A DNA stretch of 35,118 nt. Source: Nitrospira sp. Its GTDB lineage: Bacteria; Nitrospirota; Nitrospiria; Nitrospirales; Nitrospiraceae. How positions within the stretch are numbered: position 1 is the stretch's first letter; the number at the start of each line of letters is the position of its first letter. Made by a program: the position numbers and the translations under genes. Positions 3,789-27,917 of the stretch are shown one piece after another. The stretch lies in assembly GCA_003135435.1 (NCBI GenBank), contig PLBR01000059.1, positions 1 to 35,118 of the forward strand, given 5' to 3'. Below the pieces are notes generated by a model, which worked only from the letters and a program-made list of their open reading frames with translations, ran no database searches and was not told the DNA's origin.

Positions 3789-4230
3789 CATATTTGTGGC
3801 GTTTCAAGATGGTCATTTATGCACCTAAACCACGTGGGTCTACTAGCCCGCATTATTCACGAAGGCTTCTACTGCAACCGTCGATACGCCGCTACGACAA
3901 GCCTGACGGCGGGCGGGCTCACCGCTCGGACCCTCAACGTACTGCACGAGTACGCATCGGGTCCTCACGGCTCCGCGCACTCGTCTCGCTTGGCGTCTCG
4001 GCGGTTTCGTCACGAACCTTCGTGAATAATGCAGGCTAGGCTCAGCCGACTCCGGAAATGACAAGATAGCGATCGCCCAATATATATATATATGGACCCT
4101 TTCGAGAGTTTCCGATTATGTAGGGCATTTTGCTGTAGGGATGCCGAGAGGGAGTATTCATATGAAACTAGGAGCGGAGAAAGTAAATGGTAGTGTCCGC
4201 AGAAGGGCAAGTGGCATTAGCTGAACAGGC
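3671..4230. other. Gap between pseB and pseC
   Basis: These 560 bases hold the end of a small ORF, a 189-bp palindromic element (3847-4035), a short (TA)n run around 4081-4093, and a 20-codon ATG frame from 4161 (starting MKLGAEKVNG) that ends just before pseC. That frame is preceded by a GGGAG at 4150-4154, but I cannot assign it. No long ORF on either strand is convincing. The last 190 bases probably carry the promoter or leader of the pseC operon, although no clear box is visible. Confidence 0.5.
3847..4035. mobile_element. 189-bp palindromic MITE with CTAG target duplication
   Basis: The ends are CCCGCATTATTCACGAAGG (3847-3865) and the complement of CCTGCATTATTCACGAAGG (4017-4035), 18 of 19 bases identical. 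CTAG flanks both sides (3843-3846 and 4036-4039), as expected for a 4-base target duplication. The interior is GC-rich and imperfectly palindromic throughout, centred on CGTACTGCACGAGTACG near 3945. There is no transposase ORF, so it would depend on a transposase elsewhere. The CC ends and 4-base duplication resemble the IS1380 family; that assignment is from memory and is an inference. Confidence 0.75.
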
Positions 4231-6294: not shown

Positions 6295-6466
6295 CAGTAG
6301 TGTCCGGTTAAGACAGAAATGGTCGTTTATTCAGTCGTAACCCATTGATTCGTATGGAGGCTGTGTTTGGTCTCGCATTGAAATCGTGACCACCATTAAA
6401 ACTTCGAAAATGCTTGCCGCCATTGGCTTTCAGCGGCGTGCGCCCATATTTAACCGGACACTACTG
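6295..6466. mobile_element. 172-bp MITE with 17-bp perfect inverted repeats
   Basis: The left end CAGTAGTGTCCGGTTAA (6295-6311) and the right end (6450-6466) are perfect inverted repeats, flanked by the 9-base direct repeat GGCGAATAT. The interior has no transposase, only short ORFs. It is a non-autonomous element, probably derived from a full insertion sequence with the same ends. I cannot name the family with confidence; the 9-base duplication would fit several DDE transposase families. Removing it restores one continuous frame across methyltransferase motif I. Confidence 0.9.
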
Positions 6467-25765: not shown

Positions 25766-26770
25766 ATGGGACAGTTTCCTCTTACATTAAGCAGATTTAT
25801 CATTCAGAAGCAGGCGGCACATCCGGGGGCCACCGGGGAATTTTCCAGCCTCTTGGCTCAGATCGGCTTGGTTGGTAAACTCATTGCGCGGGATCTCAGA
25901 TGTGCAGGGCTCATCAATATCCTGGGAACGACCGGTGAGACTAATGTGCAGGGGGAGACAGTTAAGAAGCTGGATGAGATTGCGAACGAGACCTTTCTGA
26001 AGGCATTTCGCCATAGCGGACTTGTATGCGCACTGGCGTCGGAAGAGATGGAAAAACCGGTCCTGCTTCCGGAGAATTGGCCGCAAGCCAAGTACATGCT
26101 GCTCTTCGATCCTCTCGATGGCTCATCAAACACGGACTGCAACAATCCGCTCGGTGCGATTTTTTCGGTCTTGAGGTCCGAGCGCAAAGACCGGATGCCG
26201 ACCGAGGATGAACTTGTCCGCAAGGGAACAGAGCAGGTGGCTGCCGGCTATCTCCTCTTCGGGTCAAGCACCATGCTAGTCTATACCGTTGGACAAGGAG
26301 TACACGGGTTTACGTTGGAGCCTGGCATCGGCGAGTATCTCCTGTCTCACGAGCAGATCCGTATGCCTGCTCGAGGCAAGGTCTATGGCGCGAACGAAGG
26401 CAACTATCATAAATGGACGACGGGCATGAAGAAGTACATGGACTATCTGAAGATCCCGGATACAGCCACGGGGCGGCCCTACAGTGGACGCTATTCCGCC
26501 TGTCTGGTGGCCGACGTACACCGGATTCTCCTCGGCGGAGGTATCTATCTCTATCCCGGTGAGCTGGGCAAGCCAGAGGGCAAGCTTCGGTTGCTGTACG
26601 AAGCCAATCCGTTGGCGTGGGTCGTGGAGCAGGCAGGAGGGAGAGCCAGCACCGGCACCATGCGCATCCTCGACGTGGAGGCCAAGCAACTGCATCAACG
26701 GGTACCGTTGTTCATTGGGAGTGCGGACGACGTTCTGGACGCGGACGCGTTCATCCAAGGCAGACGATAA
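25766..26770 (+). CDS. fbp: Fructose-1,6-bisphosphatase class I
   Basis: FBPase hydrolyses fructose-1,6-bisphosphate to fructose-6-phosphate in gluconeogenesis. From ATG 25766 the protein is 334 residues, the normal size. TGETNVQGETVKKLDEIAN marks the N-terminal part, LASEEMEKP and LLFDPLDGSSNTDCNNPLG the metal and active-site loop, and YSGRYSACLVADVHRILL and LYEANPLAWVVEQAGG the substrate-binding C-terminal part. A longer in-frame reading from 25661 overlaps the DUF3108 gene and is rejected. The next gene is a class I aldolase, the enzyme that makes its substrate in the gluconeogenic direction. The fructose-6-phosphate product could also feed ManC. Confidence 0.94.
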   Translation: MGQFPLTLSRFIIQKQAAHPGATGEFSSLLAQIGLVGKLIARDLRCAGLINILGTTGETNVQGETVKKLDEIANETFLKAFRHSGLVCALASEEMEKPVLLPENWPQAKYMLLFDPLDGSSNTDCNNPLGAIFSVLRSERKDRMPTEDELVRKGTEQVAAGYLLFGSSTMLVYTVGQGVHGFTLEPGIGEYLLSHEQIRMPARGKVYGANEGNYHKWTTGMKKYMDYLKIPDTATGRPYSGRYSACLVADVHRILLGGGIYLYPGELGKPEGKLRLLYEANPLAWVVEQAGGRASTGTMRILDVEAKQLHQRVPLFIGSADDVLDADAFIQGRR

Positions 26771-26771
26771 C

Positions 26772-26974
26772 CGTGAAACGAATATAACTTACTCAGGTAG
26801 ATAGGCTGAAGGATCTTAGGGGTTGGGCTTCTTGCGCAACGAGGATTCATCTCTGCTTGAACCCAAGGACGTAGAAATCGAGAAGGTGTTGAATGGCTTG
26901 ATTCGTGCTTTGCGAGATCGTTTATAGCCTTCAGCCTGAACACCTGAGTAGGTACTAACGAATAACGTTTCACG
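26772..26974. repeat. 203-bp inverted-repeat element between fbp and fba
   Basis: Three matched blocks face each other: CGTGAAACG (26772-26780) with CGTTTCACG (26966-26974), TACTCAGGT (26790-26798) with ACCTGAGTA (26942-26950), and AGGCTGAAGG (26803-26812) with CCTTCAGCCT (26928-26937). The enclosed 115 bases hold a frame from TTG 26823 to the TAG at about 26925-26927 with protein-like sequence (RNEDSSLLEPKDVEIEKVL). No clear flanking direct repeat is visible. It could be a mobile element remnant or a terminator/regulatory structure. Confidence 0.65.
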
Positions 26975-26993
26975 AATCCAGGGGAGGAGAGAC

Positions 26994-27917
26994 ATGGCTG
27001 ATCGAGTACAAGAGATTCTGAGCTGGTACAGCAGCGACAACGCGGGAACAAAAACGAATATCGCCCGTTTGTTGCGCCATGGAAAATTGGCGGGGACTGG
27101 TAAGCTGGTGATTCTGCCTGTGGACCAAGGATTCGAGCATGGTCCGGCCAGGAGCTTTGCCTCCAATCCAGGGGGCTACAATCCCCTCTATCATTTTCAG
27201 TTGGCGATCGATGCGGGCTGCAATGCCTACGCCGCGCCGTTGGGATTTCTGGAGGCCGGGGCGAGTGAGTATGCCGGGCAAATCCCGATCATTCTGAAAC
27301 TCAATAGCCACGATACATTGCACGACGAAAAAGATCCGTTGCCTTCCGTGACGGGCAGCGTGAGCGATGCGCTGCGATTGGGCTGTGTGGCTGTGGGGTT
27401 CACGATTTATCCAGGGTCTTCGCACTGCAACGCCATGTATGAACAGCTGCGCGAGATTGCAGAAGACGCCAAGGACTGTGGCTTGGCGGTCGTCGTGTGG
27501 TCGTACCCGCGCGGGTCGATACTCAGTAAGGAAGGGGAGACGGCGATTGATGTGGTGGCGTATGCGGCCCAGATTGCGGCCCAACTCGGCGCCCATGTCA
27601 TTAAGGTCAAGCTTCCCACTGCGTATCTTGAACAGGCCGCGGCGAAGAAGGTGTACGAGTCGGCCAAGATTTCGATCACGACCCTGGCAGAGCGGGTCAA
27701 GCATGTGGTGCAGAGCTCGTTCGATGGGCGCCGGATCGTCATTTTCTCCGGGGGGGCCAAGAGCGAGGACAAGCATGTGTTTGAGGAAGCGCGCGCCATT
27801 CGTGACGGCGGCGGATTTGGCTCCATCATTGGGCGAAACTCGTTCCAGCGTCCCAAAGCAGAGGCGATTACGTTTCTCCACACCATCATGGGGATTTATT
27901 CCGGCGAGGGCCGGTGA
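26994..27917 (+). CDS. fbaB: Fructose-bisphosphate aldolase class I (archaeal/DhnA type)
   Basis: This Schiff-base aldolase interconverts fructose-1,6-bisphosphate with dihydroxyacetone phosphate and glyceraldehyde-3-phosphate. The 307-residue protein has KLVILPVDQGFEHGPARSF near the N-terminus, GSVSDALRLGCVAVGFTIYP and AVVVWSYPRG in the barrel, and HVIKVKLPTAY, whose lysine is the expected Schiff-base residue. IFSGGAKSEDKHVFEEARA and GSIIGRNSFQRP form the phosphate-binding end. The ribosome binding site GGGAGGAGAG lies just before the ATG. It pairs functionally with fbp upstream, with a 203-bp inverted repeat between them. Confidence 0.93.
   Translation: MADRVQEILSWYSSDNAGTKTNIARLLRHGKLAGTGKLVILPVDQGFEHGPARSFASNPGGYNPLYHFQLAIDAGCNAYAAPLGFLEAGASEYAGQIPIILKLNSHDTLHDEKDPLPSVTGSVSDALRLGCVAVGFTIYPGSSHCNAMYEQLREIAEDAKDCGLAVVVWSYPRGSILSKEGETAIDVVAYAAQIAAQLGAHVIKVKLPTAYLEQAAAKKVYESAKISITTLAERVKHVVQSSFDGRRIVIFSGGAKSEDKHVFEEARAIRDGGGFGSIIGRNSFQRPKAEAITFLHTIMGIYSGEGR

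Follow-up and report, generated by a model that had tools for sequence, protein, structure and literature searches.

What lies between an fbp-like and an fba-like gene of Nitrospira sp. (contig PLBR01000059.1 of assembly GCA_003135435.1), where three pairs of complementary blocks enclose a short open frame? We analyzed the whole 35,118-nucleotide stretch around this gap, referred to here as the window. An earlier note on this DNA had read the blocks as one inverted-repeat element with an internal protein-like ORF, and had proposed a small mobile element, a cruciform or a dual terminator. All three blocks could be located, as could the 34-codon frame, which opens with TTG (Table 1). Two of the blocks lie within an inner pair of arms (26787-26812 and 26928-26953) that are 26 nt long and 81% complementary. 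When the gap was shuffled 2000 times with dinucleotides preserved, one shuffle matched its arm score, and 10 of 1745 placements of the same geometry across the window equaled it, in four clusters including the fbp-fba gap. Folding of the region as RNA beat 200/200 shuffles on each strand (z of -3.74 on the plus strand and -4.62 on the minus strand), and a cruciform or an RNA hairpin can form at the gap. A pattern scan of 26600-27150 found no promoter-like site and no terminator-like site (a G+C-rich stem followed by a T run), a result that lends no support to a dual terminator.

Table 1. Coordinates of the features at the fbp-fba gap, numbered along the window.
Feature	Position	Strand	Remarks
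Upstream neighbor, fbp-like gene	25766..26770	+	Stop at 26770; name as in the earlier note
Outer older hairpin, left arm CGTGAAACG	26772..26780	+	CGTGAAA heptamer family
Left target duplication AAACGAAT	26776..26783	+	7/8 identical to right copy
MITE-like non-autonomous element, IS66/ISBst12-type ends	26784..26955	+	172 bp; multicopy, ends, duplication
Left terminal inverted repeat	26784..26812	+	Outer ATAACTTACTCAGG, finishing in GGCTGAAGG motif
34-codon frame, IVP C-terminal remnant including stop codon	26823..26927	+	PF05635/TIGR02436 family
Right terminal inverted repeat CCTTCAGCCTGAACACCTGAGTAGGTAC	26928..26955	+	Arm alignment, end consensus
Right target duplication TAACGAAT	26956..26963	+	7/8 identical to left copy
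Outer older hairpin, right arm CGTTTCACG	26966..26974	+	CGTGAAA family; pairs with left arm 9/9
Downstream neighbor, fba-like gene	26994..27917	+	Start at 26994; name as in the earlier note

The feature is very probably made of two nested palindromic elements: the remnant of a transposon with IS66/ISBst12-type ends, derived from a copy carrying an IVP gene (which codes for a four-helix bundle of the type known from 23S rRNA intervening sequences, PF05635/TIGR02436), lying within an older heptamer hairpin. The complementarity of the blocks therefore stands but their common origin does not, the inner pair being the transposon ends and the outer pair belonging to the older hairpin. The mobile-element reading likewise holds for the inner part, which is multicopy with terminal inverted repeats and 8-bp target duplications, but not for the outer pair.

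To place the outer hairpin, we inspected by eye what lies between fbp and fba in 27 relatives. In 18 of these gaps there is an element whose arms are of the same type, seven contain a heptamer hairpin only, and two are reduced to 28 bp. The element-free hairpins are built of CGTGAAA-like units, and because seven of the 27 relatives have such a hairpin without the element, we assign the outer arms to it. With one mismatch allowed, the CGTGAAWCGTGAAWCGTGA unit has 59 sites in the own genome (overlapping array sites are counted repeatedly), its reversed control has none, and the unit is present in 30/32 genomes of the genus. The same unit also frames L009, an IVP gene that is intact in the own genome. 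We rejected the idea of a perfect 9-bp hairpin interrupted by the element, which is a reconstruction only: the hairpin of the element-free relatives is longer and of other sequence.

The elements found in the 18 gaps are in part worn and mostly have a palindromic middle, and may reflect either one old insertion or repeated ones. An IVP fragment was seen in just one of these relatives (L182), where it is inverted; these differences, with most of the 18 lacking the fragment, count against our preferred explanation. Outside the 27, one contig (G023 C573) joins an fbp end to IVP-fragment matches.

Heptamer-like sequence also occurs elsewhere in the window. From 33983 to ~34130, heptamer-like units (GGTTTGTTTTGTTTATCTGGTT type) form another long inverted repeat, which contains no IVP gene; its motif resembles the arms flanking L011, a further IVP gene that is intact in the own genome. 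The predicted protein that begins MNKTNQINQINQF, from 24868, looks like the same heptamer array (AACCAAATAAACCAA) read into an N-terminus.

Whatever its origin, the hairpin might be kept between fbp and fba for regulation or RNA processing, as a terminator or an RNase III site. We consider this unlikely, even though 25/27 relatives (18 with the element, seven with the heptamer hairpin) carry hairpin-forming sequence in the gap by eye, and even though ten element-type and three heptamer-type gaps, when folded, all beat mononucleotide shuffles (z from -1.6 to -6.5). Self-complementarity is expected of transposon ends anyway; two relatives have the empty 28-bp gap; sequence and middle vary among relatives; and the terminator scan described above was negative.

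Returning to the nested-element explanation, the inner part belongs to a repeat family. BLASTN found about ten loci in the own genome with the element or pieces of it, and the inner end pattern, with up to three mismatches, occurs at 23 own-genome sites (both ends counted) and its reversed control at none, so the objection that the blocks might be single-copy fails. A 438-bp member from the own genome (contig C132), used as a query, has relatives in 25/32 genus genomes, the own one included. The exact 13-base end is present in 17/32 genomes of the genus and in 24/175 genomes of the family, where it reaches 4/22 genera.

We examined 85 end pairs from these loci, some of which are alternative pairings of one element. 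An 8-bp flanking duplication identical at 7-8 of 8 bases was found in 17 of the 85, against 0.12 expected; duplications of 7, 9 and 10 bp were found in 2, 2 and 1 pairs, and other lengths stayed at chance. From the 17 matches, with other lengths near chance, we conclude that the element creates an 8-bp target duplication. Two observations count against the preferred explanation here. The other 68 pairs, again including alternative pairings, lack a good duplication, and that of the window copy becomes visible only once the register is shifted. An additional base at the left end, relative to the consensus GTAACTACTCAGG, and the different register used in the blind count kept the window copy out of the 17.

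Several further elements were noted. In the own genome, short derivatives are nested in a longer IVP-carrying copy (L045, contig C102, 22270-22790), whose outer ends are flanked by an 8/8 duplication, CACTTTTC. In G019, two exact ends 1033 bp apart were considered as an autonomous element and rejected, since the first 77 bp proved to be an element of their own and the ORFs are not transposase-like by eye. In the window itself, a second MITE-like element of 172 bp was recognized by eye at 6295-6466; it has a perfect 17-bp inverted repeat, CAGTAGTGTCCGGTTAA, with GGCGAATAT on both flanks as a possible 9-bp target duplication. A long imperfect inverted repeat beginning CTAGCCCGCATTATTCACGAAGG, from ~3841 to 4045, has an arm score of 26, above that of the fbp-fba feature.

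The GTAACTACTCAGG ends are GTAA-start terminal inverted repeats of the IS66/ISBst12 kind. According to the available part of PMC12898284, ISDge4, a member of the ISBst12 group of IS66, terminates in GTGACTACTCAGCA and GTAACTGCTCAGCA, with a repeat of 8 bp; the Nitrospira end GTAACTACTCAGGT differs from each of them by one mismatch in the first 12 bases. IS66 target repeats are given as 8 bp in the excerpts of PMC11946415 and PMC3281130, and the former gives GTAAGCG as the start of IS66, with which the Nitrospira end agrees in the first four bases only. On these partial sources, the likeness to ISDge4 and to MITEs derived from IS elements lies in the terminal sequence and the 8-bp target duplication. 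The Nitrospira element differs in having no transposase and in carrying an IVP gene or its remnant instead.

The link between the frame and IVP comes from longer copies. The 34 residues alone gave no match in a family search; we connect them to IVP because longer copies of the element contain it. In the long own-genome copies, on contigs C132 and C102, the IVP gene (PF05635) is present but broken. A full-length element was found in a related genus of the family (G124 C2, 230501-230939): it spans 439 bp with perfect 13-base ends and an 8/8 duplication, GTTACTTG, and its sole long ORF, of 128 codons, is an intact IVP gene. A second intact element (L069, in G012) has a 7/8 duplication. The intact protein, a four-helix bundle of ~119 residues, scores above the family cut-offs (113.7 bits for PF05635, 114 for TIGR02436), resembles the solved structure of XCC0516 (2gsc) with an E value of 4e-26, and has no transposase domain among its family matches. 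When the window frame was aligned with the C-terminal 34 residues of intact IVPs, the seven rows agreed fully in 18 columns; judged by this alignment, the frame is the C-terminus of an IVP gene.

IVP genes of the Nitrospira lineage also occur where such ends are missing: in the 14 long loci that we read, two settings of this kind recur. By eye, what we take to be a heptosyltransferase-like gene adjoins IVP in eight of the 14, and presumably a dihydroorotase-like gene does so in two. Within the set of eight, one locus (L068) has a good left end and four have broken frames. Between ten intact IVP copies (45 pairs), mean dN is 0.067 and mean dS 0.624, rates that indicate a gene under purifying selection.

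The IVP protein, rather than an IS66 transposase, might itself move the 439-bp element. We find this improbable. Being the only long ORF of the full-length element and under purifying selection, the gene is a candidate, and an IS66 partner with matching ends was found neither in the own genome nor in the available DNA of ten IS66 loci of relatives. However, a bundle of ~119 residues that matches no transposase family is a poor fit to such a role, IVP also sits at sites that lack these ends, and the ends and 8-bp duplication are of the IS66 type as far as the cited excerpts describe it. No IS66 transposase was found in the own genome; such genes occur in 4/32 genus genomes (E up to 1e-5) and 10/172 family genomes (E up to 1e-20). 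The ten loci of relatives, several of them near contig ends, contain no matching end pair in the available DNA, and a search of the own genome, genus and family, in which several candidate loci run off their contigs, likewise found no parent IS with the same ends. From its ends and the length of its duplication, we infer that a transposase of the IS66 type moved the element in trans.

In the window, this element survives as a remnant that has lost internal sequence and is probably untranslated. The internal ORF proposed earlier holds only as a fossil, the last ~31 codons of an IVP gene. In 19 gap-free element fragments, 40/87 changes (46%) are synonymous, against 28% expected without constraint, compared with 65/100 in the ten intact genes. 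The fragments thus show weaker constraint than the intact genes, perhaps inherited from coding ancestors, and their 46% share was counted against the preferred explanation. That the frame is a working small protein is very hard to sustain: it is open and clearly similar to IVP, and among 26 fragment BLAST rows (with four duplicate pairings) just three are frameshifted and one has a stop, but most of the four-helix bundle is absent, constraint on the fragment frames is below that on intact genes, and the fragments are truncated at differing codons (the first matched base is 1, 4, 9 or 17 of the reference stretch) and so share no common start.

Altogether, the nested-element explanation would proceed in three steps. 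A CGTGAAA-family hairpin of seven-base repeats would already have stood in the fbp-fba gap. Next, a transposon bounded by IS66/ISBst12-type ends, whose cargo was an IVP gene flanked by inverted GGCTGAA repeats, would have inserted into this hairpin with an 8-bp target duplication, presumably mobilized in trans by an IS66-type transposase. Finally, the ~439-bp form would have lost most of its middle, perhaps via deletion between internal repeats, so that a MITE-like copy of 172 bp remained, in which only the final ~31 codons of IVP are left. If transcribed, the region is predicted from folding to form a long hairpin that separates the fbp and fba frames.

We further investigated IVP genes in other bacteria by scanning genome contigs with an IVP alignment, and analyzed the best 80 of at least 556 loci, from many phyla. 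For the 73 loci with full 200-bp flanks (seven were dropped), the left flank was aligned to the reverse complement of the right, and a score of at least 14 was taken as positive. Of these 73, drawn from the best 80 of at least 556, 55 were positive and 12 scored below 12. Controls were far lower: 2/876 random placements and 6/677 other ORFs of 90-200 codons in the same loci reached 14, as did 6/73 flanks in direct orientation and 8/511 mismatched flank pairs. In the 120-bp flanks of 74 of the 80 loci, self-match was highest at lag 7 (0.368 versus 0.263, p = 8e-32), followed by lag 14, with lag 8 also raised (0.296 versus 0.255). The heptamer unit varies from locus to locus. Seven of the eight intact IVP genes of the own genome also reached 14, scored without a separate control (L014 fell below). 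None of the best 80 loci matched rRNA at the Rfam gathering score, and the association is therefore distinct from the known 23S case. This shows that IVP genes outside rRNA are associated with inverted arrays of seven-base repeats, and hints that IVP loci are an overlooked kind of palindromic element. We found no report of such a tie by title or abstract, which, given partial literature coverage, is weak evidence of novelty.

Two IVP loci stand in particular surroundings. A planctomycete IVP gene (L221, 3667-4008) lies within a long tRNA gene array, with 20 tRNA matches in the locus. A Dyella IVP gene (L250, 5001-5339) seems to lie between what we take to be dnaK- and dnaJ-like genes, with short GGTGAAT/GGTGAAC units and their inverse alongside.

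The closest known arrangement is the 23S intervening sequence of Coxiella, which in the portion of PMC4990558 available combines an S23p/IVP ORF with a terminal stem of 28 bp and with GACAGAT heptamers in tandem. The trio of ORF, terminal stem and heptamers is therefore already known inside rRNA. The same portion mentions transposition as a suggested origin of the Coxiella sequence, describes IVP/S23 as without known function, and treats the role of rRNA intervening sequences as open. Set against this description, the Nitrospira element shares an IVP ORF between complementary ends, a length of ~430 bp and heptamers beside the ORF, but differs in lying outside rRNA (no Rfam match was found in the window) and in having IS66-type ends with target duplications. 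Seven-base intergenic units are also described in the accessible text on Xanthomonas and Nostoc (PMC4692102), where those of Xanthomonas sometimes form inverted pairs, and as TAACTGA repeats in Beggiatoaceae (PMC4679880); the main text of these two sources, as far as available, uses neither the word S23 nor four helix.

A further likeness is to RAYT/REP systems: in both, a gene stands between inverted repeats, and the repeat unit is also scattered at sites that lack the gene. In those systems REP repeats frame a Y1 tyrosine transposase gene, whereas the gene framed at IVP loci encodes a four-helix bundle, matching IVP families only, and the units are heptamer arrays.

We tentatively propose, as a view somewhat short of even chances, that a widespread and as yet unnamed class of palindromic elements has IVP/S23 proteins as its dedicated partners, and that in this class inverted heptamer arrays frame the gene and shed gene-less hairpins, much as in RAYT/REP. 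The 23S intervening sequences would be just those members of the class that inserted into rRNA genes, and many of the heptamer repeats of bacteria would be its offspring. One Nitrospira unit would have gained IS66-type ends and with them a second way to move, and the window would hold one family's offspring inside another family's hairpin.

The window locus is thus an ordinary decayed transposon copy, informative as a clue. With inverted heptamer arrays at 55/73 IVP loci (from the best 80 of at least 556), the function of IVP becomes a testable question, namely whether the protein binds or propagates heptamer repeats. If IVP does act on these repeats, the scattered heptamer repeats of bacteria would gain a common origin.
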